Positions 4,955-23,987 of a DNA stretch of 64,000 nt are shown here, in pieces (position 1 is the first letter of the stretch; every line of letters begins with the position of its first letter). Source of the DNA: a virus; IMG/VR virus record IMGVR_UViG_3300043607_000039, positions 1 through 64,000 of that record; one strand, given 5' to 3'. The notes below the pieces were generated by a model. That model was given only the letters and a program-made list of their open reading frames with translations, had not been told where the DNA came from and ran no database searches. A program made the position numbers and the translations under genes.

Positions 4955-7900
4955 TCATCCTCGGGCCCTGGCAATGTCGGCACGCTGCTGCTCAGCAAGC
5001 TCAGGGAACAGCTTGTCGAGCACTGCCGCCCGCTCCGGGAACAGGTCACGGAAGTACACGTCGCCGCTCCAGCCGCTGCCATTGGTGAGGGTGCCGGTGC
5101 CAACGACGCCCAACATGTACAGCCGGATGGACTCCGCGTAGTCCTCCTGAGGATCGGATGTTGCGTACGGCGTGACCCCGTAGGTGAAGTTTCCCCGCGG
5201 GAATGTGGACTCGAACTCGGAAGCCTTCGTCGGCTTGAAGTCGGTAATCCGCTCATTTGGGTTAGGACTCTTGGTCGCGGCCTTGACCCAGGCGGCACTC
5301 TGGGAGCCGTAGACCGGCGATGTGGTGTCGACGTTGTGGCCGAATTCATGGTTGAGGTCGCCGTCGAGGTGATCTCCACTTCCTTCTCCGTCATGCCAGA
5401 CGATCGTGTTACCGAACGAGGCTGACGCCGCAGTGCGCAGTGGCTCCTGGTCGGGGCCCAGCAGGCCCCACTTCTCTTGCCATTGCCCCTCACGAGGGTG
5501 GCCGCCCTGCACCATCACGTAGGAACGCTGGTACCGGCTGGCCCCTGGCGGCAAGTTATTGGCGTGCGCGATAAGCCTGTTCACGCCGACAGCTGCGCGC
5601 TGCCTCTCCTCTGGGGTGTCTCCGTGCTCCACGACGTAGACGACACCGTTGCGGCGCCAGGCAGTGCCGGACCCAACCTTGTATCCAACCGAGAGGGTCA
5701 GGTCACGGACGTTGGTGCCCTGGGGCCAGGTGTCCTCTTCCAGGATGCTGTCCACGGTGCGGTCGCCGCCGAGCCGGCCGGTGATGGCTCGACTACTGCT
5801 GGCTGGCACTGCGGACGAGGCCGGTCGGGCAATCCGCTCCAACAGTGACGGACGCCGGGGGGCGGCGATCTTGGGCCGGTCGCCTGTTCCGAGCTGCTTC
5901 TCTCCCGACCACGACGAGCCGTTCATGATGGAGCGGCCCAGTTCCCCCTGGTCCGAGATCTCCTTCGGTGTGGGCCAGTCCTTCATGTCTTGCTCCACGA
6001 ACCGGTCCAACCATCCGGACAGGACTTCGCGCTCCTCGGGGGTAGCCCGACTGAACGCTTGGCCAATGCGTGATGGCACGTCGCCAGCAGCGCCACGTCG
6101 GTCGGTCTGCCAGCGGAAGTCTCGACGAGCTGAGGCAAGCCCACCGTTGAAGGCAGGGCTGATGGTGGCCCGGGTGAAGCCGAGGTCGGCTAGCCTCCGG
6201 TCCTGCTGGTCATTGAACCGGGTACTCAGACCCTGCTGTTGCTGGGCCTTTTCGAGGGCGAACATGTCATTGTGGACGGTTCCCGTAGCTGGGTAGAGCA
6301 CGCGCCGGAAACCACCAACGATCCCCCCGTCCCCGTCCTTAACATCGCCTTCGACTCGAATGACTGGGTTACCGTCAATGTCCTTGTAGACGAACGATCG
6401 CTCAGGGTCCACGCGGAAGGACTTGCCGTCGTCGTCCACGTCGAAGGCGCTTGTAATGGCCTGACGCTGAGCCTCCGGCATGTCGCTCAGGTACTTCTGT
6501 CCATCGTCATCGAAGCCATTCGCTGCCAGCTCGCGCACGGTCGCCTTGTCGGTCAGCTTGACCTGTGGCCCCTCGGGCTCACGTAGGCGAGGAGACTCCG
6601 TCGAGCGACCATCAGGCTTGGATGCCCGGATGCTGTCCAAGACGTCAGTGAACAGCTTCCTGATGCGGGTCTTTGCCTCAACGAATTCCTGGTACTCGTC
6701 GGACTGGTCGTCGCTGAATGGCGACTTGTATCGACCCGTCGCCGGGTCAATGACGCCATTGTTCTTCCAGGCATCCGTCATCCGGTTCATTGTGTACTCG
6801 ACGCTGTCAAAGTCCGTGGTCGCTTCGCCCGCACGAATCCGGTCCCGGATGCCTTCCAACACGTCCTTGGGCGATCCGCGACCACCCATGCGGTCGACGT
6901 ACATCGCCGCCGCCGGCCCATCGAGCCCGTCGCCAACACGCAGAGCCTCGTCGATGGCGCTTTCGATTACCTGACGCTGCCCGGCCTTGGTCCGGACGTT
7001 GGGCTTCTTCGCGGGGGCGGCCTTCTTGGCTGCCGGCGTCGGTGCTGATACGCCGTCTGACGGAGTCGCCCGGTCCACGGCAGTGTCGTGGTCCACCTCT
7101 CGCCGTCCGAGCCGCTCACGCCAGTACTCGTTGCGCTGACCGGGAGTCAAGGTACGAAGCTCAGCCTTCTGGTCCCGGTTCAGGGCCTTGGTGAGCTTGG
7201 CCTTCTTCTCCGCATCCACGCCCTCCAGCCGTGCACGAGCAGCTGCTACAGCCGGACCCTCAGGGACTCGGGGCGCCCGTGTAGTCGCCTTAGCTGGTGC
7301 AGCCTTTTTCGCAGCCCGAGCACCTGGGGCACCCGGTGCGTCACTGGCCCGCTTGATCAAAGCCTCAAGGCGGCCATGAGCGGCGTCGTACCAGGCCTCA
7401 CGGTCCAGGCGCTGGAACTGAGGCTTCATAGCCTCCAGCTCCTTGCGGACGTCGGTCAGCTCGGCAGTGGTGAACTCGTTGCGGTCTAACCACTGGCCAC
7501 CCGTGATCAGGGTGACCCCCATCGTGTCCTTGGTTTCCAGTGAACGGTAAGGATAGGCCGCGCGGAATGGGTCATTGAAGTGGTTGCCGTCCGGCAGGAT
7601 CTCGCCGTCAGGGCCGTACTTGGGCTCGTCATCGAAGGCCAGGCTGTTGTCGAAGCCAACCGGCCTACCATCAACGATCATCCAGTTGTTGTTGTGACGG
7701 TCGCTGTTGCCAGCGATGGCGTCGAGGATCGCCATACGGCGCCCCTCGGGGGTGTGGACCGCGGCGTCAATCTCCTCTGGCGTGTGCTTCTCGGCCTGCG
7801 TTCCCTGGATCTCGTCCATGAACACAGTTCGGTCAGTGGGCCGGTAGACCGCGGCCTGTGGGGCACCAGTTCGGCGGCCCAGCTCGGAGGTGAGCTGCTC

Positions 7901-10900
7901 GCCGTCGGCCTGCTGCTCGCCCGACATGAACCAGTCGCTGGACATCCGCTTACGGATGATCTTTTTGCCGTCGGGGCCTTCGACTCTGGCGACCTGGCCC
8001 ATGCTGCCGGTGGAGATGTAGCTCCGGTCCGTGAGGCCTGCGTCGAAGGCGTCCTTCAGTGCCTGGACCTCGGGGTCCAGGTCGACGTGGTGATCTCCCA
8101 CGGGTCCGTCGCCCACGATCATGTCAATGAGCTGAGGCTTAGTGATCGAGGACGGCTTCTTCATCCCCGGTGGCAGCTCGTCGAGCAGCTCCCTCATGGT
8201 CTTGGACTCAAGCTGCTCGCGTCGCTCCTGGCCAAAGGGCTCTGCGATACCGAGACGACGCCGGATATCCTTCATCACCTTGTTGCGGAGGACGTCGAAC
8301 TTGTCCCCCTTGGTGTTCTCTAGATGCAGGGCGTCAGCAACGTCTCGCAGCTCATTGGGGCGCAGCTTTCGGCTCAGCGTGTCCGCCCGGTCCAGACCGC
8401 GAGGTGTCAGGTAGGCCGCCCGATCGGAGGAATTGAAGTCGCGCAGCAGCTCGAAGCCAGCGTGGTAGTTGTCGCCAATGACGCTGCGACGTGTCTCGAC
8501 GTCGGCAAACGGCTTGTCTGGAGTCGGTGTCGGACGTGACGAAAGGTCACCATCGCCGCCGCCACGAACCGACCGGAGCACTGGCCGCTGGAGCGTGACC
8601 ACTGTGGACTCAGTGGCTTCCGGCGTGACGTCCTTGTTCTCCTTGAAGGTGCTCTCGTACCACTCGCGGAGCTGCTTGCGGGGCCGCTCATCCGGACCGA
8701 CTCCGGCTCCGGCGAGCGCGGCGTCGGTCCGCTTGTAGGCGTCGGGCACCTTGTGGTGCTGGTCCTCGGTCCGGACCGAACGGTCCAGTTCGGCCAGGCT
8801 GTTGGACGGCACTCCGCGGCCCAGCTTGCTCTCGGCACCCAGGAAAATGCTCGTGGGTACGCCGTCGCCGGAGTTCCACTTCTCCGGGTCGGCCACCACG
8901 CCAGCCCTCGGAGCCGGGGCGGCCGGCGCCTTGTCGTTGAAGTACATCCCGGGGGTGTGGATCTCGGCCAGTTCGCCCGGCTGCACGCTGGCGCCGTCGA
9001 GCAGGTCGTGCTTGTCCGGGTCATAGGTGACCTGGTCCCCGTCGTTGCCGTCGACCGTGATGCCACGGCTCTCCAGGTGCTTACGCAGCCGGGCCTGGAA
9101 CTTGGCGGCCGTGTCGTTGTCGCTGACCTTCAGCGTCTTGCGCAGGTCCTCGTAGCCCTGGGTGTTGTGGTCGGACTTGTTGTCGATGTCTCCTACGGGC
9201 GTCTTCTTGAGCCGGTCGGCCACGGCCGTGCGGAACTCGGCCTGGCTCCGGTCGTTGCGCCGGGCCGCGATGATCTGCTCTAGCTCGGAGGCGAGCTGGG
9301 CAGTTCCACCGGCACGCTGCCGGCGGGCGCCGGCCTCCCGGGCCTGGAGCCGCTTGCGGGCGTTCTCCGTGGCGTCCGGGCTCGGCTGAGTCAGTTGGGA
9401 CTCTGAGGGGACGTCGGCCTTCTCGACCGGGCGCGGTGGAAGCTCGCGGTCACCCTTGCGGGGCTCCCCGGGACGCAGAGTCCCCTCGCGAACGACCACA
9501 GGACCGTCGCCATCCTCGACCCTGTCAGCCAGGGCCCGAATGCGGTCGGTCTCCAGATCGGCTGCCCTGCGACGTTCCACGTCACTGGCGTCGGTGGAGT
9601 AGCCCTCAGTCTGGACGGCGCCCGCCCGACGTCGGATCTGGATAGCGGCGGCCCGCCGTGAAATACGACCCTCGTCGGCTGCCTTTGCCAACTCCTCGGG
9701 TGGCGCGCTGTACGCCTCCTTCTGCGTCAGCTGCTTGGGGGCTGCTGCCTTCTTGGTGGGCGCGGCTTTCTTGACCGGTGCCGCTGAAGGCGCACTAGTC
9801 TCACCATCCCGACCTAGTACCCGATAGGGGATTCCGGCGTCGTCGAGCTTCTTCGCGATTGCCGGGGACGGCTGCTCAGGGAACACGACCTCTGCGATGT
9901 CGTCCTTGGTGACGCCGCCATGGATCTGTGCCTCGACGTAATGTGACCGCGTCCAGTCTGGGCTGTCCATTGCGTCGAGCTTGTTGATGCCGAGCGAGTC
10001 GGCTGAAGGGTTGTCCACTGGAGACGGTCGCACGAAGGGAAGCTCGTCGAGACTGTCGCCCACCGAGGCCGTCGTCCGAGACCGAACGTCTGGCTTCAGG
10101 ATGACCTGCACCCGTCCATACGGACTTAGTGAATCTTCCTGACCCTCGCGCTGCGAGATGCCCGAGATCTTCCGTCCCCCTGGTAGCGCCGGCTCGACGC
10201 CGTTGACGGCCACGTAGCCGTACACCGGCCGCTTGTCCGGTGCTGTGTCGACCGGAGTACCCAGGACGTGTTCACCAAGACGACGACGCTCAGGGCTGGA
10301 GTCCAGACCTGGAGCCCGACGTGCGCCCCGGTCGAACTGCGTCTTGAAGCGACCGTTCGACAGGATGTCGTCCAGGGCGTCCTCGTCCCGCACCCGGACT
10401 GCAATGGGCTTGTCGGCGAACTTCTCCTTCAGTCGTGCTGCCACCTTCGCCCGGTACGCGGCCGGCGTATCGCCGGCTGCCTTGGCATCCTTGTCGAGAC
10501 GGCGACGGATCTGTGTCTCCTGGGCGACGTGCTCAACGAACGCCGGTTCACGCTTGTGAACGTCGTCCAGCCACTCGGCGTCCTCCTTGCCCAGGTTGCC
10601 CGACGTTGCGACCCGTCCGTGCCGATCCTGCACTGTGGCGTAGATCTGCGGGTCCTGGCGGATGAGCCGGCGAACGCGGGCCTGGTCCTCGCGACTCAGG
10701 TCGGTAGATGGACCGCCGGCTGGGACTGCACGAACTGCTTGCGGGGCCGCAGGTGCAGCGGCCTTCATTGGAGCAGCGGGTGCTCCGCCCTCCGGCTCAC
10801 GGATGCCCTTGATGATCCGGTCGATCCGCGTGTCCCGGTCCATGCTGCTTAGGACTGGGATACTGGCCGCATCGGCGATGTCCTCCAGCTTCTGGTCAGA

Positions 10901-13900
10901 CAGCCGGTCCAGGAACTGCTTAGCGTCATCAGGGGAGTCGGCCGTGTAGACCCGGTCCACCTGGTCCAGGTTGGCGGGACGTCCATGGGCGGCCGACCAC
11001 TTGAATCGCACGTTGTCCCGAGCCTTGCCCCAGTTGGACTTGGGGTTCGCAACAGTAGCTGGCGGCTCGAACCGAGGTGTGCTCGAACCGCTGCCGTCCT
11101 TCGGCAGTGCGTTGCGACCAATGCCTGCGAACTCTGGCTTTGCTGGTACTTCGCCGGCCTGGTGCTGGCGGTACCTGTCCATACGCCAGGTACGGATTTC
11201 CTTGCTGAGGGCGTCGTTGTTGCCCGCCTCAGGGTCGAGCTTCCACATGCTGTAGGCGCCGTCGCGGCTCTCGTGGTACCGGCGCAGGATCTTGCGGATC
11301 TTGTCACTGGCGCGCGGCTCACCGTCGGAGATCTCCCGGAACGCCTCCGCCAACTGCTCCACGGCCGACTTGCGCTCATCACCGTCGTTGACCGACTCGG
11401 GGCGACGAGCCAACGGGATCCGGTTCAGATCCTCGATCAGCTTCCGGGCGAGCGGAGGTGTGTCCTCGGGCAGGTCCGGCACCGGCCGCTCAGGGGCATC
11501 CATCTTGGACAGAGCCTCGTCGTACAGCTCCCGGATCGCCGGGTCTTGCTCCTCCAGCCGCATCAGGCGCAGTTCGTCAACAGCCCTCTGGCTGGCCTCA
11601 GGGTCGCGTGAGTTGGGGCCGCTGTAGTCAGCCCGCATGTCCATGACCTTGTTGGCGGAGCCGTTGCGGCCCCTGTGGGCCAACCGCTGAGCCAGCTTCA
11701 TGGCCGGGGAGTCCCCGTGCATGATGCCGCCATCGCCGGTGGAGTCACGGGTGAGCTTCACGCTGTCCCGGGTGAGCTTCTCGCTTTCGTCAACCGGTCG
11801 ACCAGCTAGCCGACGGAGGTCCTCAGCGTCCTGCGCCTCAAGCCGGTCCATCTCGGCTTGGACGTCCGCCTCTTCCAGCATTCCATCGCCGTTACCGAGC
11901 AGGTACTGGCGAGCACGCTGAGTTTCCGGTGCCTGGAGGTCGGCAGCAGTCGCCTTCTTGGCTGCGGCCCGAGTGATCTTGACTGGACGCTCAGGGGCAG
12001 CAGGTGTCGCCTTCGGCCGCTCGAAGTTGAGGGTACGGAGGATGGTGTCGTTGAGGTCCTCGTCCTTGACCGCAGTCATGTTGCTCATACCCAGGCGCGA
12101 GCCGACACGACGCCTCTGCTCGGGAGTGAGGCCGTCGAGCCACCCCGGAATGCGGTATCCAGTGCCAGCTTGGCCACTCCTACTGATGCGCTCAGCAACG
12201 GCATCAGCGTCACGGTCGGCCTTGTTGCGAGGCTTAGGAACGGCCTCGCTGATCCTCTTCCGTGTCTTTTCCTGGAGACCGGCCGCCGACTTGAGCTTTA
12301 GTCCAGCCTCGTTGACGTGGGGCGTTTCCCGGTCGTAGCCAGCCTGACCCTCGGCCTCAAATGCGCGACCCCGACGGGCGATGGCTGCGTCCAGGGCTTC
12401 GCGTAGTTCACTGACGCTCTGTCCAGGCGGGGGCTCGTAGCCTCGTTGCCCCGGCTCGAACTCGCCCATGGTCGTGGTGTCACGACCCTCCATCCAGTCC
12501 TTGGCCTGCTGGAGAGTCGGGAATGAGGCCTTGCCGCCCATGTCAGCCTTGTAGGCCTTGTAGGAGTGCTTGGGGTTGTCCTCATCCGGTGGGAACTCGG
12601 TAATGTAGCCCAGATCCGAATTCCGATAGAACGTGATGTCCTTGATGAACCCCTCGCCGGGCTCAACTGACCATTCAACTTCCTTGGCGGCCGGAGCCGC
12701 CTTCTTGGCACGACCAGTTGCCTTGGTTGGCGGGGCGCTGATCCGCTGAGAGGGCTTGCGCAGGACCTTGAGCTTGTCCCGCAGTGCGGCCCACCGGCTG
12801 CCCTCGGCAACCAGTGCAGCCTCTTCACGGTCGCGCTGGGCCCAGTACTCAGGCGGCTGTGGAACGAGCCGACTGTCGCGGTCCTCGCCGAGCTGCCGCA
12901 GGATCATGGCCCGGTAGAACGGGCTCGCGGCACCGTTGACGTACTGATCAATGTCGCGAGCGATGTCGCGAGGGCTGACGCCCTCATCGAGTTGCTTCTG
13001 GTAACCCTCCAGTCGAGCCTTGTCCCGAGGCGTGAAGTCCTTCTGGCCATCGGTCATCTCGTCCAGGTCGAAGGTCCTAATAGGAGCTTCCACGGCCGGC
13101 AGCGGTGTGGCCTTCTTGGCTGGCACTTCCTTCTGCGGCAGGACGCGGGCCAACTGGCCCTCGGTACTGGTGTCCGCCTTCTTGGCCGCCGCAATGTCCC
13201 GACGAGCCTGGGCCACGGTCCGCTTGTCGCCAGGCGCCTCGGCAATGATCTTGCCGCGGTTCAAGATGACATACTGGTCCTTGGCGCCCTCCGCCGGGCA
13301 ACCAACACACTGGCTGCCGCGAGGCACGTGGATGGCGTCGTAGCCACGAGCCATGGCGTAGCGGCCGATGTCGTTACCCAGCAGCTGCATCTCTGGACTG
13401 TCTTCATCCAGCGTTGCGACGTAGGCGTTGTGCTCCTCGATCAGGTCCGGCAGCTCGGCGATCTTGGCGTCCTTCGCCAGACCGTATCGGGCCACTGCGC
13501 CCTCGGTCAGGTCGCTGTACCCGGTGGCGTGCTGCTTGTTCTTCGTCATGTAGGTGCCGTTGCCGAAGGAGCCGTTACCCATGTGGTAGCGGCCCTCACG
13601 GAACTCGTCATGCACCTCAGAGGCGGGCTTGCCTTTGAACTGCTCACCAAAGCCGCCATCGCGGCCGGCGGTGTCGATTCCCCGGTAGAGGATCGTGCCC
13701 ATGTCCTTGCGACGGGCCTCGAACTCGTCCCGGCTGACTACCTCCGGTAGAGCGTCGAATCCTTGACGCTCGGCCAGCTTCTCGCCCAGCAGGTCCCCAC
13801 CGCGGTCGGTCTCAAGCTCCTTCGTGAGGCCACTACCCCAGCCGGCGCGGCGACGGAAGTGTGGATCGGCGATGGCTGAGTCCACGATGGAGCGAGCGGT

Positions 13901-16900
13901 ACCCGCGCCCTCGGTGAGGTCCTTTGTCTCCACCTTTTTGGCCCGCAGGTCAGCCTTACGGGCGGCGTCAGCGTCGGCAAAGTGCTGAATGATCGCGGCG
14001 TGGATCGCCTTCTTGTCCGACTGGGCCAGTCCCTTGATCCCGAGGCCATTGCGCCCGGCCAGACTGCGCCAGGTCGCTACCGGAAGGTCGCGGTACTGGG
14101 CCCGGCCAGTTTGGGCCTGCTTCAGCTGCTTCTCGACGTTGTCCAGGACCCGCTGCCGAGCCGCCGGACCGTGAGCGTCGACCAGAGCCTGCCGAAGGTT
14201 GGTCGGGTTGACGATGCCGTCGACAACAACGGCAACACTGCGATTCTGGGCCTCGATCTCAGTCCGGTTCTTGATGCGGTCGGCGTCCTGCTTCGCGTGG
14301 AGCCGATCCATGCGGGCCTTCTGGGCCGGGATGGCACGAACTAGGGCCGCCTTGCCGTCGTCGGTCAGGATTGACTCGCGCTTGCCGCCACGCACCCGCG
14401 TCTTGACCAGACCGAGCTTCCGGAGCTGAGGTGGAATCGGGTCTGCATCCCGTAGTACCTCGCCACCGTCAGGGTTTTCCTGGTGGTTGCGCATGAGCCA
14501 GTGCTCGTCCTTCATGGACAAGCCTGGCGTGCTGGGAACGAAGTCCCTTTTGGCCTGAGACTGGACGGCGGGCGCTGCCTTCTTGGCCGCCGCCCGAGTC
14601 ACCTTGGTCGGAGTCGGGGCCTCAGTTTCGCCACGGTCATGCTTGGCGAGGGCCTCTTCCAGATCCTTCCGGGTCATCCGGCTGCGGCCAGCGATCCCGG
14701 CCTTCGACGCCCGGTCCCGAAGCTCGGCCAGTGGGGTCTGCTTCGCTGCTGCGGGAGCAGTCTTCTTCGCTACCCGTGCTTCGTCCCGCTCCAGGAGCGC
14801 GGTGTCGCGTGCCTTGAGTCGGTCCCGCTCCCATTTGTCGATCTCGGCCTTGCGGCCCTCGTACAGGCTCTGCCAGCCCTGGTACTTGGTGTCCTTGCCG
14901 CCGGGGCCAAAGATCCAGCCACCCACTCTGCCCTTGTAGTCGTGCTCAGCACCCCAGGCCTTGGCCCGAGCGATCGGGTCCTTGATGGGGCCACGCGGGA
15001 TCCGTGCAGCAGCTGGTGCCGCGACCTCCGGCTCCTCGACCGGAGCGAAGCCGTTGTTGATTTTCTCCTTGATCTGATCCACGTTGGACCGGTCCTGGCC
15101 ACGGACACCCAGGTCCCGCGCCAGTTCCCGGGCCTCAGACTGGGACAGCTCCAACGAGTCCAGGTAGTCCTGGCGCTCCTTGGTGGTCTTGCGCTCCAGT
15201 AGTGCCTTGCGAGCACGGGTCGGGATGACGTGACCAGCGACTGCCCGGTCCGGGTGCTTGGGCGTGAAGTGGCGCACGATTTTGGCCTGGACACCGGCCT
15301 CGTCGTCGCGGCCGGCGCTGACGATTCCCAGCTGCTTGGCCAGGACGCGCCACTGCGTCTTGTTCATGGGGCCCAGGTCGTCAAGGACCTTTTGGCGGGC
15401 CTCAGGAGTGGTAGCTGCGCTCAGGTCCTTGCGGATCTGGGCCGGGTTCTTTGGCCGAGTGACCCGACGTGCCCGTGGAGCGGGACCAGCAGGCGCCGCT
15501 TCCTCTCCCCCTTCACCCTTAGACATGCGGATGACGTCGCCACGACCCAGGGCGTCGATGGGCTTGCCCTGACGGTCCAGCAGCGTGCGGCCGACAACCT
15601 CGCCAACAGTGTGCTGTTCCCGGTCTTCGCCCATGACCACATCGCCAGGGCGGATGTCCCGGCGAGACACAACGTCCGGACCGGTCTCCAGCTCGTCGGC
15701 CAACTGGCGCGACTCAGGGGTGTCCAACCCCCGTAGCTGCTGAACAGCCGCAGCCTTGGTGATCTTCTTGGCGCTTAGGTCATTGAGTACGGTGTCGTTT
15801 TCGTTGAGCTGTGCGGCCGGGGCACGGGCAGGGGCGGCCTTCTTGGCCGAGGTGCGACCCTCCCGCTCCATGATGAAGGTCTGCTGGCTCGGCAGACCTA
15901 TCCCGCCGACCGCGTTGTTGGCATTATCGACCCGAACCTCGTTGCCGTCGTCATCATGACCAACAACAACCTTGAGCCGGTTACCAACCTGCTCGACCCG
16001 GTCAACGGTGATGGGCTTACTGCCACCCTGCCTGACTGCCGGCCGCCAGCGTCCATCCTCGGCTGGGGCGACAAGAACCCGGTCACCCTTGAGTAGCTTC
16101 CCGTTCGGGATCTTGCCATTGTCTCGGACTCGGCCCTCACGAGAAGGCGCTGCCACAGTTGGGGCCGCCGCCTTGGCTGCCCGCAGGCGTGGAGCCTCGA
16201 CACCTTCACCACCCGCCGCGGTGCGGGCCTCCAGTCGACGCAGCAGTGAAGCCTTGTAGTCCTCGTCGGTCAGTCCCATGGCGCCCGGGACCTTGATGGA
16301 GGCGCTGTCCTCCAGCTCCTTGCGGTCGGTCGGCAGTCCCAGAGCCTTGAGCCGGTCGTCCACTTCCGCGGCCGTACGCCGCGGGGCCGCGGCCTCGGTT
16401 AGCGCCTCGCCGAGATTGGCCTTTTTAGCTGGCGCCGCCTTCTTGGCTCCCTTGGTCGCCTTAGTCGCCTTGGCCGGAGCTGCCTTGGCTGGAGCCGGGC
16501 GACCGGCATCGCGGGCACGGATCTTGTCGGCCAGCTTCTGAAGCTGGTCGATCCGATTCTTCTCCCGGTCGTGAGTGCGAGCCTTGCCGCGCCAGTAGCT
16601 TTCGGGAAGGTCGACCCCATCCCGGCCCCAGTCTCCATTGAGGATGGTGTTCTGGGTCCGCATGTCCCCGACGAAACGCTCCAGCATGTCGGCAACCTGC
16701 GTCGGCGACGATCCTGTGTTCAGTCGGGCCTGGGCCACGTCGGAGTACGCGGCCAGGTCGGCCATGTTGATGCGCCCGTCGCGAGCTAACTGCCGAACGT
16801 CCACATGGTCCGGACCGCCAGGACCGAAGCGCTCGTTGGCCTCGCTGTCCTTACGTAGACCCTTGGCCTCGCGGGTCATGGTGCGCAGCTGCCGACGTTC

Positions 16901-19900
16901 GGCTCGCTTGGCCTGATCGTCTACATCATGAAGGGCGATGTAGCGCATCAGGTCGGTGAGCTTCTCGTCCTGGTCCTTACCTTCGATCTGGATACCCAGG
17001 GTGTCGGCCGCCTTGCGCAGGTTCTCCGGCGCCAGGGCATCGCGCTGGTCATCGGTGAGCTTGTCTTGGGAGACCTTCTTCGGCGGGGCCGCCTTCAGGG
17101 CCTTGGCTGCTGCCCGCTTGATGATGGGACGCTGCGGACGAGGCGCTTCGGAAGTTTCTGGAGCCCGATCCCGGTCATGGACCGTGCCCGACACCTTGAC
17201 CCGCTCGATGGCCCGGTACATCCCGGCTACATCGTTGATCATTCGCTTGCGCTGGGCGGCCTCAGCCGGAGTCAGGTCCTTCTCCCGCTGACCGGTCAGG
17301 TCGCGATAGTCGGCTTCCTTGCGACGACGGCTGATCCGGGCACGAAGGTGCTGGAGCGCGTCGGACTTGGACACCTCGCCGTCGCCAACGGCCTGCACCA
17401 GCTGGTCAGGGGTCAGCCTGGTGATACCTTCCCGGTCGAGCTGGGGGACGGTCACCTCAGGAGCGGCGGCCGCGGCCTTAGCTGGGCGCAGACGTGGGGC
17501 GTCCTCCGCCAGCTCACGTTCGAAGCCGCCGACCTCCATGCGTCGGAGGAACTCGGCCTTGTACTGATCGCTGGTCATCCGGGATTCGCCCGGGATCTTG
17601 CCCGAGGCGATGCCCTTCAGTGCGGCACGTGAGGTTGGTAGACCTAGAGCCTTGAGCCGGTTGTTGACGTCAACCGGAGACCCGGCCTCAACGGAGCCCT
17701 CACTGCGACGGGTAACGATCTGCTGCTTCAGTGCTTCCTTGTTGAATCGGCGCGGACTCTGGACACCCTCCTTTTGAGCAGCATCCAGCAGTTGGGCGTA
17801 GGTCTTTCCTTCCAGGTCCGCGTCACGGTCCGATGTGGAGGGAGCCGCTGCCTTTGCTGCCTTAGCCACCTTGGCAGGTGCTGCTGCCTTGGCCACCTTG
17901 GCAGGTACCTTGACGCCGCCCTCAGGCTCCAGGATGAAGGTCTGAGAGGCGCTCGGGTGCAGCTCGACCTGGTCACCGTCATCGTTCCTGAGGGTCAGGG
18001 CAACAGCCCGGGGCCGGCTGCTGACGCCTTGGCCAACGACCTCGAACGGGGTGACGTTGGTTTTGCGTGTGGTCGGGCGCCACTTTCCATCGGCACCCTT
18101 CTCCAGCAGGACCCGAACGCCAGGCTGTAGTCGACGGGCGGTGAGCTTGCCCTCGGCGGTGCCGGCCGCCTTCTCGACCGCGGGTGCAGCCTTCTTGGCT
18201 ACGGCAGCCGGCTTTGGAGCCGGTGTCTCAGGGAACCCCTTCTTGGCCTCGGCCTCCGCGGCCTTGCGAGCAGCGCCAGGCGTGGGGTAGGCACCACCCA
18301 CCGGCTCGCTCAGTGTGCTCTTCCGATCGGTCCGGACGACCTGGAAGCCTGTCTGTCCTGGCCGCCTGCGGATCTCGTACTTGACGTCAGGGTCGTTAGT
18401 GTCGACCGCGATCTTGCCGGCCGAAATCGGCGACAGGAACTCGGCCATCGCGTCACGCCAAGCGGCGTGGGTGGTGCGACTCGGCTCCTCGGCCACGATC
18501 TCGGCGACTCGTGCCCGGATCAGTTTCTGCGCTGGCTCCGGGAAGTCCTCGAACAGCTTGTTGTCATTGCGGGTGGAGGGCCGTTGCCCCACTGCACGTG
18601 CTGCCTTGACTGGTGCTGCCTTAGCCGCCTTGGCTGGCGCAGCCTTCTTGGCCGCAGGTGCTGACTCGTCACCCAGCCACACTGCGGTGTTGGGGAAGCC
18701 GGCAAGCCAAGAGCCATCGTCACGAGTGATCTTGATACGGTTGCCGTCGCGCTCGACCTTGGTGACCTTGCGCGGGATCCCGAGTTTGGACTTGTCGGAG
18801 CCGGAGCCTCCGCGGACGACGTCGCCGACCTCCACGTTGGTCATGCTCTTGCGCTGGGTGCCGTTCGCCAACGGCGGTAGGAGCTTGGCAGCTGGAGCAG
18901 CCGCGCTGATCTTCTTGACCGGGGCAGCCTTGGCGGGAGCAGCCTTCTTGACCGCGGGTGGCCTACGACCCATGGCGATGTAGACCTGATCGATGTCCTT
19001 CTTTTGCTCAAGCGGGCTCAGCTCAGCGAACGGCTTGTCCAGCTCTCCGCCCTTGACCCAGTCCTCTTCGCCATGCCGCGACAGCCACGCGGCGTGGACT
19101 GCCTCACCCACCTCCAGGCGGGTCTTCTCGTCGGTCAGGTCGACCGTGCCGCCGTGCTTCTCCAGAATGTCCTCAACGACCTTGGCCGCGTCCCGGTTCT
19201 CTTGCTTCCAGTCATCGGGTAGCTCTGCGTAGGGCGTGTTGTAGATGTCGACCTGATCGGTGCCGTGCGCCTCAATCCACGCCTTGTCCGTCGTGGGCTT
19301 GAGTCGCTCCGGCGGACCTTCGCGGCCTTCCTTGCCGGCGGCGCGCTCCTCCATCCACTGCTGCTCGAACGTCTTACGCCAGCCCTCTTGAAGCCGGGCC
19401 GCTTTCGTCTCGACGCGACGTGCACGGGCACGTTCAGCTGGAGTCGACCTCGAAGCGACAGCCTTGGCGGGAGCGGCCTTCTTGGCTGGAGTCTCCGGTG
19501 TGGGCTCCCTAACCGCAGGCGCTTCAGTTGCGGCTGGGGTGGCCTTAGCTGGGGTGGCCTTCTTTGTGCCGCCGGGTGGTGCAACGCGCCAGGGGATTCC
19601 AGCCTTCTCCAGCGCGGCAATCGTGGCCGGTTCAGGCTCGCGAGGGAACAGGACCTCTTCGATGTCATCGTTGCTGACGCCATCGTGGATCTGTGCCTCA
19701 ACGTAGGTCAATTGCTGGAACTGTGGGTCACCAAGGTCGTTGTACTTGGCCGCCGCCGGCTGAGCCGCACGGTAGTCGGGATTGTCGATCGGCATGGGGG
19801 TGAGTTCCTTGCGCCGATCCAGTGAGTCACCAGCGGAAACCGTCGTACGTGGACGGACGCTGTCCTTGAGGACAACCCGGATGTCGCCGTACTGGTCCAG

Positions 19901-22612
19901 CTTCCCTTCGCTGTGCTCACCGTCTAGTCCGCGCGGTGCCACATATCCATAGATAGGCCTGCGTTCAGCAGGAAGGTCCTTGGGGAGGCCAAACGCCATT
20001 TCTTCGAAGTCTGCACGCAGGGCCTTGTCGACGTATCCGCCGTCACTTGTTCCAGTCTCGTGCTGAGTCTTCATGCGACCGCTGGCGAGAATGTCCCGAA
20101 GGCTTGACTCACTGCTGCGGCGAACGACGATCGGCTTGCCTGGGGCCGTAGCTCGGCGAATGGCCTTTGTGGCCTTCTCCTGCATCTCGGGCGTCGCGCC
20201 CGCGTACTGGTCGACCCACGTCTTCCGGTCGTTAACTTGTTCCTTCACCAGGTGGTTGTAAATTCCCCGGTGCTCCTCGAAGAACTTCTTCAGTTCAGGA
20301 ACCCGACCAAAGAGCAATTGGGCATGCAGGTTGTCGTCGAACTCGTCGCCAATAATCACCGGCGGCCGTTCAATGCGGATCAGTTCACGCATCTTGTCGA
20401 TCTCGGCCTGGGGCACGCCCTGCTCGGCTGCGATCCTGTCAAGATCGAAGGCGGGTGCAGTGCCCGCCTTACGTGGCGCCGGAGCCGCCTTGGCCGCCTT
20501 CGCCGGCTCGGGTGCGGGAGCCTTCTCCGCGGCCGGTAGGGACTTCGTGGGCGTCTTCTTCGGCGACTTGACCGGGGTGGGCTTCTGGGGGCCCGCCTCT
20601 GCCAACTCGTCCGCGACGCCGTCAAGTTCGTCAGCCTCGCTCAGGCTAATGTCACGCAGCTCGGTCTCGCTGCGATCTCCCTGATCGTCCAGGTCCCCCA
20701 GTGCCAGGCCGTTTTCGCGTAGGTCCTTCGCCCGGACGCGGAGCCGGTCGATGACAGCGTCACGATCCTTACCGGCCGACAGGTCCCGCTTGGCTCCGGC
20801 AATCGCCTCGTCGCCGGCCACAGTGCTGGTCCGGGCACCGCCGAGGGTGTCCAGGTCGACCCGGCGCTGCTCCTCGCGCTCCTTGCTCTGCGCGATCATG
20901 CGCCGTTCGACGTCGGCGTCTGGTGCCGCAGGAGCTTCAGCTGGGGCAGTCTTCTTGGCTGCGGCCCTGGTCTCCAGGCGCTCACGGGCGACAGCTACTT
21001 CCGGTGCCTCGGGAGCGGCAGCCTTCTTGGCTGGCGCGGCCTTGGCCGCCTTCGCTGGAGCTGGGGCCTCAGGAGCCTCGGCGGGAGTCGCCTTGGCGGG
21101 CGCGGCCTTGGCTGCCTTCTTCGCTGCCTTCTTGGCGGGAGCTGGCGCCTCTGGGGCGCCTCCCTCCGCCTCCTGCTTAATCTGTCGCGCCTGCGACTGG
21201 ATCCGGGTCTCGTCGTCGTTGCGCGGGTAGCCCGGTTCCTTGCTCAGTTCCGCATCTCGCCGGACGACCGCCTTCTTCTGGACATCGGTCATGTCGGCAA
21301 TGGAGTCAGGTGCGCGCTTGACAGCCCGCTTCTTTGGAGTCGGGGCCGCAGCAGCAGGAGTTGTCCCGGCACCAGGCTGCTGGTCCATGAGCTGCTTGAT
21401 CAGCTGCTGGTTCAGCTTGATCTGCTCCAATTGCGACTTGGTCAGTTGCTCCTGGGCGCGCATGACGCGCTCCTGCTGCCGGTCAACGATGGCCTGCTGG
21501 GCGGCAACCCGCTTCTGCTCCTGCTCAAGTCGAGCCTCTTCTGGGCTCAGGACCTGCTTGGACGGGCGAGGTGTGATCTTCTCCCGGGGGGCGATTTCCT
21601 CGCCGGGCTGCACGACCTTGCCCGCGCCGAGAGGGACCTCTCCCCCGGACTCCTCGATCGCCTTGGCTGGGCTCGGGCCAGGTGGGCCGGCAGGCGCAAC
21701 AGGAGCTGGCGTATGAGCCGGAAGTCCCTGCTCGCCAGGGGCTGGCGTACCCGACGGGGGCAGCGGCTTCGGGATCGGCTGCCCGTCAGCGTCCAAGCCC
21801 CGCTTGGCCAGCTCCTCGGGAGTGGCCTCAATGGCCGGAGACTTCTCGCTCTCGGGAAGTTCGGCGCCCAGGCTCCGGGGAGCAACACCACTACCCTGCC
21901 TTGGCATGGCCGTGGCGTAGATGTAGGTACCGCCGTGCCCGTCCTTCTCCACCTTCATGATCTGAAGGGGCTGATCCTTGTCCAGGATGACCGACGTGAA
22001 GCCATCGCCAACAACGACGGCGTCAGTGCCGCGAGGGGCCAGGATCGACCAGGTGACATGGGGACCTGTGGTCTGGCGGGGTGAGCCGAGGTTGGTGGCC
22101 GAGAACGCTTTGTTGCTGACGAGCTTGCCGGTCCACTCCTCGATCTCGTCCATGCGCTCAGGAGGTAGGCCAAACTGCTGACCGTCGCCAACCCAGGTGA
22201 GGAGCATGTCCGCCGGCAGCGGCTCCATCATCGCGCTGATGTCGTTGATCTCGTCAGCGGGACCTTCGACCTTGCCCTTGGCGCCCTTGTCCTTGGGGTC
22301 ATAGCCGGCCCACATGGACTGGGTGATGCTGTCGTAGCCCTCAGGCGTGTAGAACTTTGTGATCGACTCGTTCTGCCGCTGCGTACGGGGCTTTGTCTTT
22401 ACCGCCCGCAGGTAATTGCCGGCGTGCTTATCGGACCTGAACTCAGCGGCATCGAAATGCTTCAGAATTCGGTCGACGATACCCATAGCGCGAGCACCAA
22501 GGCGCCAGCTATTCCGGAACCGACCGTGGCTGTCCCTTGGGTGCAGCTCGGCTTTCCAGTTCGCTACGTCGACTGCAAAGTCCGACGAACTGTCCCACGG
22601 GTCGACGGCCAC
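4955..22612 (-). CDS. giant multidomain polyvalent-type protein (ADP-ribosyltransferase, kinase-like, zincin)
   Basis: 5,885 residues from a GTG at 22612 (AGAAGGGG upstream); about 28% of the window. It starts with the HPRDSHGRFR motif common in MuF-linked phage proteins. Approximate domains in order: ADP-ribosyltransferase-like 60-240; DUF3626-like 820-1015; three SH3-like beta modules; repeated SAP/Rho-N-like helical modules about 1,600-4,800; second ADP-ribosyltransferase-like 2,970-3,130 (ILYRGID...GNGTYMT); second DUF3626-like 4,065-4,265; HipA/PI3-4K-like kinase 4,865-5,055 (GNSDRHNNNW, GFDNS); acetyltransferase-like 5,400-5,500; zincin near 5,755 (HEFGH, later Glu in QEDYAES). Linkers are KKAAPAKA-type, histone-H1-like. 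It lies between protease/MuF genes and the capsid gene, so packaging in the virion and ejection into the host is the likely role. The domain pattern fits phage polyvalent proteins. Substrates are unknown. Confidence 0.75.
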   Translation of the reverse strand: MAVDPWDSSSDFAVDVANWKAELHPRDSHGRFRNSWRLGARAMGIVDRILKHFDAAEFRSDKHAGNYLRAVKTKPRTQRQNESITKFYTPEGYDSITQSMWAGYDPKDKGAKGKVEGPADEINDISAMMEPLPADMLLTWVGDGQQFGLPPERMDEIEEWTGKLVSNKAFSATNLGSPRQTTGPHVTWSILAPRGTDAVVVGDGFTSVILDKDQPLQIMKVEKDGHGGTYIYATAMPRQGSGVAPRSLGAELPESEKSPAIEATPEELAKRGLDADGQPIPKPLPPSGTPAPGEQGLPAHTPAPVAPAGPPGPSPAKAIEESGGEVPLGAGKVVQPGEEIAPREKITPRPSKQVLSPEEARLEQEQKRVAAQQAIVDRQQERVMRAQEQLTKSQLEQIKLNQQLIKQLMDQQPGAGTTPAAAAPTPKKRAVKRAPDSIADMTDVQKKAVVRRDAELSKEPGYPRNDDETRIQSQARQIKQEAEGGAPEAPAPAKKAAKKAAKAAPAKATPAEAPEAPAPAKAAKAAPAKKAAAPEAPEVAVARERLETRAAAKKTAPAEAPAAPDADVERRMIAQSKEREEQRRVDLDTLGGARTSTVAGDEAIAGAKRDLSAGKDRDAVIDRLRVRAKDLRENGLALGDLDDQGDRSETELRDISLSEADELDGVADELAEAGPQKPTPVKSPKKTPTKSLPAAEKAPAPEPAKAAKAAPAPRKAGTAPAFDLDRIAAEQGVPQAEIDKMRELIRIERPPVIIGDEFDDNLHAQLLFGRVPELKKFFEEHRGIYNHLVKEQVNDRKTWVDQYAGATPEMQEKATKAIRRATAPGKPIVVRRSSESSLRDILASGRMKTQHETGTSDGGYVDKALRADFEEMAFGLPKDLPAERRPIYGYVAPRGLDGEHSEGKLDQYGDIRVVLKDSVRPRTTVSAGDSLDRRKELTPMPIDNPDYRAAQPAAAKYNDLGDPQFQQLTYVEAQIHDGVSNDDIEEVLFPREPEPATIAALEKAGIPWRVAPPGGTKKATPAKATPAATEAPAVREPTPETPAKKAAPAKAVASRSTPAERARARRVETKAARLQEGWRKTFEQQWMEERAAGKEGREGPPERLKPTTDKAWIEAHGTDQVDIYNTPYAELPDDWKQENRDAAKVVEDILEKHGGTVDLTDEKTRLEVGEAVHAAWLSRHGEEDWVKGGELDKPFAELSPLEQKKDIDQVYIAMGRRPPAVKKAAPAKAAPVKKISAAAPAAKLLPPLANGTQRKSMTNVEVGDVVRGGSGSDKSKLGIPRKVTKVERDGNRIKITRDDGSWLAGFPNTAVWLGDESAPAAKKAAPAKAAKAAPVKAARAVGQRPSTRNDNKLFEDFPEPAQKLIRARVAEIVAEEPSRTTHAAWRDAMAEFLSPISAGKIAVDTNDPDVKYEIRRRPGQTGFQVVRTDRKSTLSEPVGGAYPTPGAARKAAEAEAKKGFPETPAPKPAAVAKKAAPAVEKAAGTAEGKLTARRLQPGVRVLLEKGADGKWRPTTRKTNVTPFEVVGQGVSSRPRAVALTLRNDDGDQVELHPSASQTFILEPEGGVKVPAKVAKAAAPAKVAKAAKAAAPSTSDRDADLEGKTYAQLLDAAQKEGVQSPRRFNKEALKQQIVTRRSEGSVEAGSPVDVNNRLKALGLPTSRAALKGIASGKIPGESRMTSDQYKAEFLRRMEVGGFERELAEDAPRLRPAKAAAAAPEVTVPQLDREGITRLTPDQLVQAVGDGEVSKSDALQHLRARISRRRKEADYRDLTGQREKDLTPAEAAQRKRMINDVAGMYRAIERVKVSGTVHDRDRAPETSEAPRPQRPIIKRAAAKALKAAPPKKVSQDKLTDDQRDALAPENLRKAADTLGIQIEGKDQDEKLTDLMRYIALHDVDDQAKRAERRQLRTMTREAKGLRKDSEANERFGPGGPDHVDVRQLARDGRINMADLAAYSDVAQARLNTGSSPTQVADMLERFVGDMRTQNTILNGDWGRDGVDLPESYWRGKARTHDREKNRIDQLQKLADKIRARDAGRPAPAKAAPAKATKATKGAKKAAPAKKANLGEALTEAAAPRRTAAEVDDRLKALGLPTDRKELEDSASIKVPGAMGLTDEDYKASLLRRLEARTAAGGEGVEAPRLRAAKAAAPTVAAPSREGRVRDNGKIPNGKLLKGDRVLVAPAEDGRWRPAVRQGGSKPITVDRVEQVGNRLKVVVGHDDDGNEVRVDNANNAVGGIGLPSQQTFIMEREGRTSAKKAAPARAPAAQLNENDTVLNDLSAKKITKAAAVQQLRGLDTPESRQLADELETGPDVVSRRDIRPGDVVMGEDREQHTVGEVVGRTLLDRQGKPIDALGRGDVIRMSKGEGGEEAAPAGPAPRARRVTRPKNPAQIRKDLSAATTPEARQKVLDDLGPMNKTQWRVLAKQLGIVSAGRDDEAGVQAKIVRHFTPKHPDRAVAGHVIPTRARKALLERKTTKERQDYLDSLELSQSEARELARDLGVRGQDRSNVDQIKEKINNGFAPVEEPEVAAPAAARIPRGPIKDPIARAKAWGAEHDYKGRVGGWIFGPGGKDTKYQGWQSLYEGRKAEIDKWERDRLKARDTALLERDEARVAKKTAPAAAKQTPLAELRDRASKAGIAGRSRMTRKDLEEALAKHDRGETEAPTPTKVTRAAAKKAAPAVQSQAKRDFVPSTPGLSMKDEHWLMRNHQENPDGGEVLRDADPIPPQLRKLGLVKTRVRGGKRESILTDDGKAALVRAIPAQKARMDRLHAKQDADRIKNRTEIEAQNRSVAVVVDGIVNPTNLRQALVDAHGPAARQRVLDNVEKQLKQAQTGRAQYRDLPVATWRSLAGRNGLGIKGLAQSDKKAIHAAIIQHFADADAARKADLRAKKVETKDLTEGAGTARSIVDSAIADPHFRRRAGWGSGLTKELETDRGGDLLGEKLAERQGFDALPEVVSRDEFEARRKDMGTILYRGIDTAGRDGGFGEQFKGKPASEVHDEFREGRYHMGNGSFGNGTYMTKNKQHATGYSDLTEGAVARYGLAKDAKIAELPDLIEEHNAYVATLDEDSPEMQLLGNDIGRYAMARGYDAIHVPRGSQCVGCPAEGAKDQYVILNRGKIIAEAPGDKRTVAQARRDIAAAKKADTSTEGQLARVLPQKEVPAKKATPLPAVEAPIRTFDLDEMTDGQKDFTPRDKARLEGYQKQLDEGVSPRDIARDIDQYVNGAASPFYRAMILRQLGEDRDSRLVPQPPEYWAQRDREEAALVAEGSRWAALRDKLKVLRKPSQRISAPPTKATGRAKKAAPAAKEVEWSVEPGEGFIKDITFYRNSDLGYITEFPPDEDNPKHSYKAYKADMGGKASFPTLQQAKDWMEGRDTTTMGEFEPGQRGYEPPPGQSVSELREALDAAIARRGRAFEAEGQAGYDRETPHVNEAGLKLKSAAGLQEKTRKRISEAVPKPRNKADRDADAVAERISRSGQAGTGYRIPGWLDGLTPEQRRRVGSRLGMSNMTAVKDEDLNDTILRTLNFERPKATPAAPERPVKITRAAAKKATAADLQAPETQRARQYLLGNGDGMLEEADVQAEMDRLEAQDAEDLRRLAGRPVDESEKLTRDSVKLTRDSTGDGGIMHGDSPAMKLAQRLAHRGRNGSANKVMDMRADYSGPNSRDPEASQRAVDELRLMRLEEQDPAIRELYDEALSKMDAPERPVPDLPEDTPPLARKLIEDLNRIPLARRPESVNDGDERKSAVEQLAEAFREISDGEPRASDKIRKILRRYHESRDGAYSMWKLDPEAGNNDALSKEIRTWRMDRYRQHQAGEVPAKPEFAGIGRNALPKDGSGSSTPRFEPPATVANPKSNWGKARDNVRFKWSAAHGRPANLDQVDRVYTADSPDDAKQFLDRLSDQKLEDIADAASIPVLSSMDRDTRIDRIIKGIREPEGGAPAAPMKAAAPAAPQAVRAVPAGGPSTDLSREDQARVRRLIRQDPQIYATVQDRHGRVATSGNLGKEDAEWLDDVHKREPAFVEHVAQETQIRRRLDKDAKAAGDTPAAYRAKVAARLKEKFADKPIAVRVRDEDALDDILSNGRFKTQFDRGARRAPGLDSSPERRRLGEHVLGTPVDTAPDKRPVYGYVAVNGVEPALPGGRKISGISQREGQEDSLSPYGRVQVILKPDVRSRTTASVGDSLDELPFVRPSPVDNPSADSLGINKLDAMDSPDWTRSHYVEAQIHGGVTKDDIAEVVFPEQPSPAIAKKLDDAGIPYRVLGRDGETSAPSAAPVKKAAPTKKAAAPKQLTQKEAYSAPPEELAKAADEGRISRRAAAIQIRRRAGAVQTEGYSTDASDVERRRAADLETDRIRALADRVEDGDGPVVVREGTLRPGEPRKGDRELPPRPVEKADVPSESQLTQPSPDATENARKRLQAREAGARRQRAGGTAQLASELEQIIAARRNDRSQAEFRTAVADRLKKTPVGDIDNKSDHNTQGYEDLRKTLKVSDNDTAAKFQARLRKHLESRGITVDGNDGDQVTYDPDKHDLLDGASVQPGELAEIHTPGMYFNDKAPAAPAPRAGVVADPEKWNSGDGVPTSIFLGAESKLGRGVPSNSLAELDRSVRTEDQHHKVPDAYKRTDAALAGAGVGPDERPRKQLREWYESTFKENKDVTPEATESTVVTLQRPVLRSVRGGGDGDLSSRPTPTPDKPFADVETRRSVIGDNYHAGFELLRDFNSSDRAAYLTPRGLDRADTLSRKLRPNELRDVADALHLENTKGDKFDVLRNKVMKDIRRRLGIAEPFGQERREQLESKTMRELLDELPPGMKKPSSITKPQLIDMIVGDGPVGDHHVDLDPEVQALKDAFDAGLTDRSYISTGSMGQVARVEGPDGKKIIRKRMSSDWFMSGEQQADGEQLTSELGRRTGAPQAAVYRPTDRTVFMDEIQGTQAEKHTPEEIDAAVHTPEGRRMAILDAIAGNSDRHNNNWMIVDGRPVGFDNSLAFDDEPKYGPDGEILPDGNHFNDPFRAAYPYRSLETKDTMGVTLITGGQWLDRNEFTTAELTDVRKELEAMKPQFQRLDREAWYDAAHGRLEALIKRASDAPGAPGARAAKKAAPAKATTRAPRVPEGPAVAAARARLEGVDAEKKAKLTKALNRDQKAELRTLTPGQRNEYWRERLGRREVDHDTAVDRATPSDGVSAPTPAAKKAAPAKKPNVRTKAGQRQVIESAIDEALRVGDGLDGPAAAMYVDRMGGRGSPKDVLEGIRDRIRAGEATTDFDSVEYTMNRMTDAWKNNGVIDPATGRYKSPFSDDQSDEYQEFVEAKTRIRKLFTDVLDSIRASKPDGRSTESPRLREPEGPQVKLTDKATVRELAANGFDDDGQKYLSDMPEAQRQAITSAFDVDDDGKSFRVDPERSFVYKDIDGNPVIRVEGDVKDGDGGIVGGFRRVLYPATGTVHNDMFALEKAQQQQGLSTRFNDQQDRRLADLGFTRATISPAFNGGLASARRDFRWQTDRRGAAGDVPSRIGQAFSRATPEEREVLSGWLDRFVEQDMKDWPTPKEISDQGELGRSIMNGSSWSGEKQLGTGDRPKIAAPRRPSLLERIARPASSAVPASSSRAITGRLGGDRTVDSILEEDTWPQGTNVRDLTLSVGYKVGSGTAWRRNGVVYVVEHGDTPEERQRAAVGVNRLIAHANNLPPGASRYQRSYVMVQGGHPREGQWQEKWGLLGPDQEPLRTAASASFGNTIVWHDGEGSGDHLDGDLNHEFGHNVDTTSPVYGSQSAAWVKAATKSPNPNERITDFKPTKASEFESTFPRGNFTYGVTPYATSDPQEDYAESIRLYMLGVVGTGTLTNGSGWSGDVYFRDLFPERAAVLDKLFPELAEQQRADIARARG

Positions 22613-22864: not shown

Positions 22865-22868
22865 GCAA

Positions 22869-23987
22869 TTACCGGTCGCTGTTTTGGGCGAAAATCGGGT
22901 CACCCGACTTGGCGTACTGGTCCAACTGGGTCCGTTCCTCGTCCAACGAGGCCAGCATGGAGGCCCGACGGTCCTGGTTGTGACGCTCCAGGTCCTCATC
23001 GATTTCCTTCCACCGCTCCAGTCGGGCGGCCAGCTCGTTGCCGTCATCCATCACGTCGTCGGCCGGGAACTCCGGAACCTCGGTTTCGCTCTCCATGCTG
23101 AACTCACCTTCACTGGTGTCCTCGTCCTCCAGGCCAACGACGCCAACGGCCATGAGGCTGAATGCACGGTTCTCCTGCTCCCGGTACACCGGGAATCCAG
23201 GGTTGTTCACGGCGAGAGCTGCGATCAGCTCCAGGTTGCCGTTAACGCTGCGCCAGTCACCCGACAGGGCGGCGGCGCGGAACTCGGCCACCTTCTCTGG
23301 GGTCATCGTCGTGGTGAGGGCGCCATTGATCCAGATGCCGTGCCGGTCCTCACCGACGTTCACGACGGCCGCGGCCCAGCCGGTGTTGTCGTAGTGCTCG
23401 CGGCTGGGCATGATGCCCCACCGCTCGTTGGCATGACCGGTACCCAGGGTGATCTTGCCGATGGGGGCCGAGCTGCCGTCGTCGCAGACCACAGTGCCGA
23501 CGCGGAACAGCTGGTAGTTGGTCCTGGTCTTCGGGGCCATGACGCACTGGGTGCCAATGCCGACGTGGCAGACCTTCCACTGGGCCAAGTGGCCGAAGAC
23601 GTGACCGTCCTCGTCGATAGTCAACCGGGTCGGACCCTTGAGGCCAGGATCGGCGAACCAGCCAGCCGGCGGAGCTAACGGAGCCGCGCCTGCCATCAGG
23701 GACGGTCGACTGGGCATGCTCGGCATGCTGGGCATTCCTCCTCCGTAGGCCATCTCGCCGGCATCGTCAGACGTCTCGACGCCGTACTTCTTGAGCGCGG
23801 TCTGAATCCGGCCCTTGATTTCCTTGAGCTGTTCGGGGGTGTACTTGGCCGCATTCTTGGCCACGTTGATGTAGCTCCACGCGGCCCGGCAATGCGCTTC
23901 CGTGTCCAACGGGTAGCGCTTCTTGCCATCGTCCTGGTAGCCAGGGTCGGCGTACTTCACGTCGCCGTACGGTTCCTTGTCAGCCAT
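22869..23987 (-). CDS. capsid assembly or maturation protein
   Basis: 372 residues. Residues 1-65 hold a KKRYPLDTEAHCRAAWSYI...YTPEQLKEIKGRI helical region common in actinophage capsid-operon proteins. A MPSMPSMPSRPS linker follows, then a domain with FGHLAQWKVCHVGIG, HYDNTGWAAAVVNVGED and LSGDWRSVNG, which recurs in actinophages beside the maturation protease. The C-terminus is a charged, coiled-coil-like helix. Acts during prohead assembly, as scaffold or second protease-like factor; the exact activity is not known to me. Confidence 0.55.
   Translation of the reverse strand: MADKEPYGDVKYADPGYQDDGKKRYPLDTEAHCRAAWSYINVAKNAAKYTPEQLKEIKGRIQTALKKYGVETSDDAGEMAYGGGMPSMPSMPSRPSLMAGAAPLAPPAGWFADPGLKGPTRLTIDEDGHVFGHLAQWKVCHVGIGTQCVMAPKTRTNYQLFRVGTVVCDDGSSAPIGKITLGTGHANERWGIMPSREHYDNTGWAAAVVNVGEDRHGIWINGALTTTMTPEKVAEFRAAALSGDWRSVNGNLELIAALAVNNPGFPVYREQENRAFSLMAVGVVGLEDEDTSEGEFSMESETEVPEFPADDVMDDGNELAARLERWKEIDEDLERHNQDRRASMLASLDEERTQLDQYAKSGDPIFAQNSDR

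Follow-up and report, generated by a model that had tools for sequence, protein, structure and literature searches.

A giant gene in a phage head operon

The 64,000-nucleotide stretch of DNA analysed here (the window; positions 1 to 64,000 of IMG/VR virus record IMGVR_UViG_3300043607_000039) is part of a 93,000-base virus record and carries, on its minus strand at 4955..22612, a gene of 5,885 codons that starts with GTG, ends with TGA and contains no internal stop codon. The encoded protein, referred to below as the giant, has 5,885 residues, a calculated mass of 643 kDa, an isoelectric point of 8.9 and only two cysteines, and its recognizable domains indicate that it is almost certainly a multi-enzyme protein. 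A preliminary description of this DNA had reported a 5,885-residue, roughly 17.7-kb gene with no strand given, and the reading frame found here agrees with it exactly. The gene is real and coding, as homologues occupy the same slot on independent contigs. The ratio of nonsynonymous to synonymous substitution is 0.07–0.23 across 800–1,900 codons in close pairs of family members, and long stretches are therefore under purifying selection.

In the direction of transcription, the giant gene is preceded by genes for a portal protein (phrog_776; 25910..27841), a MuF head protein encoded by a gene of its own (PF04233; 25198..25917), a prohead-protease-like protein matching the middle part of phrog_859 (24006..25196), and a DUF6582/phrog_859 head protein (22869..23987). 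It is followed by genes for an HNH endonuclease (PF13392; 4076–4519), the major head protein (phrog_777; 2127..3851), phrog_779, and the major tail protein (phrog_792; 308..1003). The genes given with coordinates were assigned by profile matches and lie, like every feature of the giant described below, on the minus strand. We read the product of 24006..25196 as a putative protease, and the endonuclease gene between the giant and capsid genes is possibly a homing insertion.

Use of the capsid protein as bait retrieved 79 loci from IMG/VR. Six contigs from other metagenomes, with capsid proteins 75–80% identical, each encode a giant at the corresponding position (6,683, 6,641, 6,190, 4,798, 4,428 and 4,352 residues). 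A scan of viral contigs with the C-terminal 1,214 residues of the giant gave no match; the scan with its N-terminal domain gave 80 loci. The portal-MuF-protease-phrog_859 arrangement lies upstream in 70 of these 80, which are all of the 70 with an identifiable neighborhood, and capsid and phrog_779 genes, with the tail gene where it was reached, lie downstream in all 33 loci that extend far enough. Smaller relatives of 991–2,128 residues fill the same slot in those 33 loci. Cultured relatives such as Odyssey395 and Rizwana lack a gene of this kind in the interval from protease to capsid.

A conserved tag and a decayed ADP-ribosyltransferase domain

The giant opens with a W..HPRD..GRFR tag (residues 19–40; 22493..22558), and this pattern, more generally W..HPRD..G.FR, followed by about 200 residues, is common to 11 relatives in which the W, HPRD, G, F and R are invariant. 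The preliminary description placed an ADP-ribosyltransferase (ART) at the N-terminus, and structure prediction does find a C3/VIP2/iota-type ART fold there (residues 40–250; 21863..22495). A profile of this domain matched VIP2 (1qs2; E=1.6e-10) and also iota and CDT enzymatic components in the PDB, and its AlphaFold model reached a predicted local distance difference test score (pLDDT) of 81 and a predicted template modeling score of 0.80. Foldseek searches with the model returned iota toxin Ia at E=1.1e-8, and C3 exoenzymes and Ia in the range E=1e-8 to 1e-6, while the top viral-model match was an ART-MuF fusion of phage Percival.

By its motif the domain is not an active C3/VIP2-type enzyme, because the catalytic R..STS..ExE signature is replaced by W..SAT..FTS in the window protein. 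In the seven giants, the second Glu of ExE has become S, T, T, T, N, D or T. By our own count, about 27 of 70 copies within the operon retain the second Glu and none retains the first. Ten family loci outside the head operon all retain the second Glu, and the ExE motif is complete in L183–186 (239 residues, with an ERE motif) and L201, also outside the head operon. A toxin-type ART thus seems to have lost its enzymatic role within the head operon and become a non-catalytic domain. As a side observation, locus L205, again outside the head operon, encodes three ART copies in 742 residues with the catalytic motif retained.

Because the N-terminal domain is catalytically decayed while leading the whole family, a role in packaging or docking is the more likely one, and its universality and position slightly favor the idea that it serves as a packaging or docking address. 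The wider notion of an RD..GRF packaging tag shared by phages in general was tested and not taken up, as the pattern occurred, among the loci checked, mainly at the start of giant-family proteins.

Enzyme domains and linkers of the giant

Compared by itself with Pfam and PHROGs, the window protein yielded only a few significant hits, so relatives were needed for the domain calls; phmmer searches of the PDB with two halves of the protein returned nothing significant. Two units (residues 806–1014 with YVEAQIH, 19571..20197; residues 4057–4270 with YVEAQIHGG, 9803..10444) correspond to the duplicated DUF3626-like units described earlier. They are 45% identical to each other and match phrog_8314, and the first also matches D29 gp2 and Tierra gp9. 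A profile of the unit matched PDB entries 7dn8 (E=1.3e-4) and 7dn9, which are structures of the Salmonella ADP-ribosyltransferase SopF (PMC10333799). The YVEAQIHGG motif aligns with YIEAHIHG of SopF, the C-terminal half being alignable. The Glu of that motif, which we take to be the catalytic residue of SopF, is retained, and on this sequence evidence the duplicated units are SopF-like ARTs. Such units were found in none of the six other giants. D29 gp2 (L105, 1282–2061, plus strand), a conserved Fromanvirus protein that carries a hypothetical annotation, is itself a free-standing SopF-like ART without cysteine.

The motifs YRG, FGNGTYMT and DQYVILN suggest a third ART-like domain (residues 2935–3139; 13196..13810). 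Comparison of this domain with PDB sequences gave no match. The top Foldseek matches of its poor model were diphtheria toxin, RES, PARPs and exotoxin A, all at E of at least 0.028, and these are ART-fold or related domains that use nicotinamide adenine dinucleotide.

Kinase-like, acetyltransferase-like and zincin domains had also been named in the preliminary description, and each gains support. The PI3K/HipA/Fam20-like kinase (IRK..E..GNSDRHNNN..GFDN; residues 4840–5092; 7337..8095), identified by profile and motif, has catalytic residues K49, E66, D132, N137 and D149, including the D-R...N signature, that are invariant in seven of seven sequences. PF00454 exceeds its cut-off in three relatives (G006, G010 and pMLP1), and matches to Fam20 and PI3K/PI4K in the PDB are weak. 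The GNAT acetyltransferase-like domain (residues 5425–5590; 5843..6340) was recognized through a relative, being 44% identical to a domain of the G011 giant that passes the PF00583 cut-off. The C-terminal zincin metallopeptidase-like domain (HEFGH..EDYAE; residues 5625–5885; 4958..5740) retains H, E, H and a distal Glu that are invariant in 12 copies, with weak PDB matches to zincins. Elsewhere in the family, the zincin is multiplied, with three copies in the G003 giant (L086) and two in the G005 giant (L088), and NUDIX domains occur in two relatives.

Long low-complexity linkers separate these domains. One of them, rich in Ala, Lys and Pro, spans residues 401–600 (20813..21412) and has a net charge of +9, and composition bears out the earlier mention of Lys/Ala/Pro linkers. 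The many SAP-like modules mentioned with them were not confirmed, as a profile search and motif counts against shuffled sequences gave no support; a Rho_N/SAP-like module at residues 2622–2660 (14633..14749) is the only firm one, alongside a few weak ones. Module comparison further delimited a segment of about 64 residues (residues 1250–1313; 18674..18865).

This layout invites the explanation that the giant is a polyprotein, which the head protease or the terminal zincin would cut at assembly into small internal proteins that are ejected separately. A protease-like gene lies two genes upstream, the zincin is C-terminal in six of seven giants, long linkers set the domains apart, and Burro gp27 (4,491 residues) runs as a band of about 250 kDa, which suggests processing (PMC7302621). 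Against cleavage, the zincin of the G011 giant is internal, and no cleavage motif is known, though none was sought systematically. Processing of the giant into pieces is a tentative possibility, somewhat less likely than not.

Module shuffling and single-domain cargos

A comparison of 13 proteins revealed 39 recurring module types that are shuffled between relatives. Only three are common to all seven giants: the N-terminal domain, which is always the first module, the 64-residue module, and the zincin, which is the last module except in G011. Module order is strongly kept between the closest two giants, G003 and G005, where 12 of the 14 shared modules are in order, and partly kept in a few other pairs, such as the window and G006 giants (nine shared, seven in order), and is near random in many others. 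The module containing the third ART, for example, shifts from residues 2764–3133 in the window to 1095–1467 in G006 and 5388–5756 in G011.

These observations bear on the proposal that the giant serves mainly inside the head, as a scaffold or as a structural protein that condenses DNA, its enzyme domains being decayed remnants. Loss of the catalytic motif in the leading ART would suit such a role, as would the basic Ala/Lys/Pro linkers and the occurrence of giants on contigs as large as 148–158 kb. It is nevertheless unlikely, since catalytic residues are conserved in the kinase, the SopF-like ARTs and the zincin, and since domain content varies freely between relatives although capsids stay 75–80% identical, unlike what is expected of a structural part.

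Each type of enzyme cargo is also found singly, at the C-terminus of MuF or minor head proteins: the SopF-like ART in Tierra gp9, the kinase in pMLP1, the GNAT domain in Jera gp5, and the third ART in L124–L127 and, weakly, in the minor head protein of cyanophage PSS2. VIP2-type ARTs are MuF cargo in Percival, KeAlii and Rasovi. Judged by these homologues, the giant looks as if MuF cargos had been lined up and transferred to a gene of their own.

The same resemblance raises the question of whether the giant is a polymorphic toxin against rival bacteria or phages, and not a means of promoting infection by the phage that encodes it. MuF toxins of temperate phages bear ART and peptidase domains (PMC5576092), and the SopF-like and VIP2-like domains are toxin-like. 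However, five family records, which may be incomplete, revealed neither an integrase nor a serine recombinase, no immunity gene was identified, and many activities on one chain suit host takeover better, so that a toxin of this kind is quite improbable.

Exclusion of cysteine

The seven giants together contain two cysteines in 38,977 residues, against 571 expected from neighboring genes of the same contigs, which encode 254 in 17,341 residues (1.46%). Both lie in the third ART of the window giant; the other six giants have none. Base composition by codon position predicts 40–52 cysteines in each of three giants tested. The open reading frames from the N-terminal scan, a set that overlaps the giants, have 28 in 110,180 residues.

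Proteins of N4 (vRNAP), T7 (gp14, gp15 and gp16) and P22 (gp7, gp16 and gp20) are ejected into the host and served as controls. Cysteine is absent from N4 vRNAP (0 of 3,500 residues), T7 gp15 (0 of 747) and T7 gp16 (0 of 1,318), occurs once in T7 gp14 (196 residues), and is absent from the three P22 proteins, which total 1,309 residues. Burro gp27 (4,491 residues) and Akoni gp31 (4,487 residues) likewise have none, as do the two tape-measure proteins tested, P1 Sit and T4 gp29. In eight of eight MuF fusions inspected, cysteine is confined to the MuF zinc motif and none occurs in the cargo, counting from the last MuF cysteine; three of the eight were read by eye where the scripted motif missed.

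The near absence of cysteine is the strongest new clue for ejection, and likely reflects the avoidance of disulfides in a chain that crosses the cell envelope unfolded. It also bears on the possibility that the giant acts, unpackaged, within the producing cell in late infection. The evidence that places it in the virion is confined to genomic context and composition, which leaves room for such a role, but neither cysteine exclusion nor the existence of MuF-fused homologues is readily explained for a purely cytoplasmic protein, and late action in the producing cell is very unlikely.

A literature search found no statement of a cysteine rule for ejected proteins, which is weak evidence of novelty. 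Cysteine exclusion could be a general physical signature of tail-ejected proteins, with giant cysteine-free proteins forming a broad class of ejected multi-enzyme machines, built from MuF-type cargos strung behind a dead ART that had been recruited as a packaging address; this generalization is put forward tentatively. If true, it would make ejected proteins predictable from sequence alone, and the resulting criterion could be applied to virions in existing laboratory collections.

The source phage

The source is probably a large, uncultured actinobacterial phage. Nearly all portal relatives among cultured phages come from phages of Actinobacteria, and capsid relatives within bacterial genomes come from Actinobacteria in every case. 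The G+C content around the giant gene is 61–66%, and 43 tRNA genes were predicted in the virus DNA of the window. One member of this array, at 35766–35838 on the plus strand, has the anticodon CTA and was labeled Pyl by ARAGORN; yet several structural genes of the phage and of its relatives end in TAG. The tRNA may be an amber suppressor, or the call may be wrong.

A small minus-strand frame (22631–22868) that separates the giant from the phrog_859 gene encodes ARMARLARLDEAREL, similar to the beginning of the G011 giant (RMERLARLDAW). In this phage the frame may be an independent gene, with its counterpart in G011 fused to the giant. The G011 record (locus L021; loci L093/L094) also has a portal gene of 979 codons in which portal homology falls into two parts, residues 1–328 and 329–642, separated by roughly 1 kb of inserted in-frame sequence that probably encodes an intein.

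Probable packaging and ejection, and possible function

The preliminary description had cast the giant as a virion-borne effector. Synteny, single MuF cargos and cysteine exclusion uphold the class; packaging and ejection are read from sequence. Packaging in the virion is highly probable and ejection into the host probable, and it is fairly probable that the giant is, taken as a whole, a virion-packaged, ejected polyvalent cargo protein. In the mechanism envisaged, the tag and decayed ART would recruit the chain into the procapsid beside the portal and MuF proteins, and the basic Ala/Lys/Pro linkers could help it to sit among the packaged DNA. The earlier suggestion that the protein rides on DNA draws solely on these linkers and the one Rho_N/SAP-like module. 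At infection, the nearly cysteine-free chain, or pieces of it made by the head protease or zincin, would cross the tail unfolded or loosely folded and refold in the host cytoplasm, where the ARTs, kinase and GNAT domain might modify host proteins, such that takeover is favored or defense is blunted.

Several considerations weigh against this scheme. The phage is known only from metagenomes, and a 643-kDa chain would have to fit the tail channel and exit the head together with the DNA. Confidence in the third ART fold is low (pLDDT 66; best Foldseek E 0.028), and the kinase and zincin matches of the window protein itself fall below Pfam cut-offs. The P1 protein DarB, which is packaged and delivered, has nine cysteines in 2,255 residues, so that delivered proteins do not all exclude cysteine; P1 DdrB has two in 995 residues, and some head proteins that are not ejected, such as the N4 capsid protein, are cysteine-free.

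Comparison with known systems

Polyvalent proteins, encoded in the gene neighborhoods of mobile elements, unite domains of disparate activity in a single polypeptide that is believed to be injected (PMC5512222). The giant shares with them at least two disparate activities, a portal-terminase virion context and a zincin-like metallopeptidase, which among polyvalent proteins is a frequent processing domain, and resembles them in carrying ART, kinase, GNAT and zincin domains on one chain and in domain shuffling. It differs in that its family reaches 6,683 residues and a decayed ART leads the chain, in its SopF-like and VIP2-like ARTs, and in its PI3K/HipA/Fam20-like kinase, as opposed to the truncated Ser/Thr/Tyr kinase of polyvalent proteins (PMC5512222). 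DUF3626 is absent from the main text of that study.

MuF polymorphic toxins (PMC5576092) and the MuF-VIP2 fusions of Microbacterium and Arthrobacter phages have the same cargo types beside the portal gene. The giant, in contrast, is a multi-domain chain with no MuF domain at its own N-terminus, and because MuF is a separate gene (25198–25917) it is not a MuF toxin. The ejected virion proteins N4 vRNAP, T7 gp15/gp16 and P22 gp7/16/20 are likewise cysteine-free, but their folds and functions are unrelated to those of the giant, and sequence comparison rejected homology to N4 vRNAP.

Among large proteins, WJZ48510 (3,289 residues) of the actinobacterial lake phage DSL-LC01 is also encoded between portal and capsid genes and has two cysteines. 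Its N-terminal RRDRYGKF merely resembles the tag of the giant, and six domain profiles of the giant family did not match it at E<0.1. ART-like and kinase-like stretches are visible by eye in this gene (L120; OQ999401, 9801–19670). The giants of Burro and cluster EK, described as the largest in any actinobacteriophage at more than 4,400 residues, include Burro gp27, which is virion-associated according to sodium dodecyl sulfate-polyacrylamide gel electrophoresis (PMC7302621). They are also encoded beside the portal gene and cysteine-free, but belong to podoviruses, had few informative domains recognized by their authors, and are shorter than the present family. Homology to the Burro and Akoni giants was rejected, the best match being at E=0.33. 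The size of the window protein, described earlier as exceptional, is so without being unique: relatives reach 6,683 residues, and it is no record because proteins of up to 7,694 residues are reported in huge phages (PMC7162821).

If the interpretation is correct, injected effectors are not confined to single cargo domains but include shuffled chains that hold about 15–23 recurring modules and reach 6,683 residues. The family would also be an example of a toxin-type fold whose active site was lost as the domain became the foremost conserved element of a protein family in the head operon, and would link MuF toxins, polyvalent proteins and ejection proteins through common domains and a common lack of cysteine.
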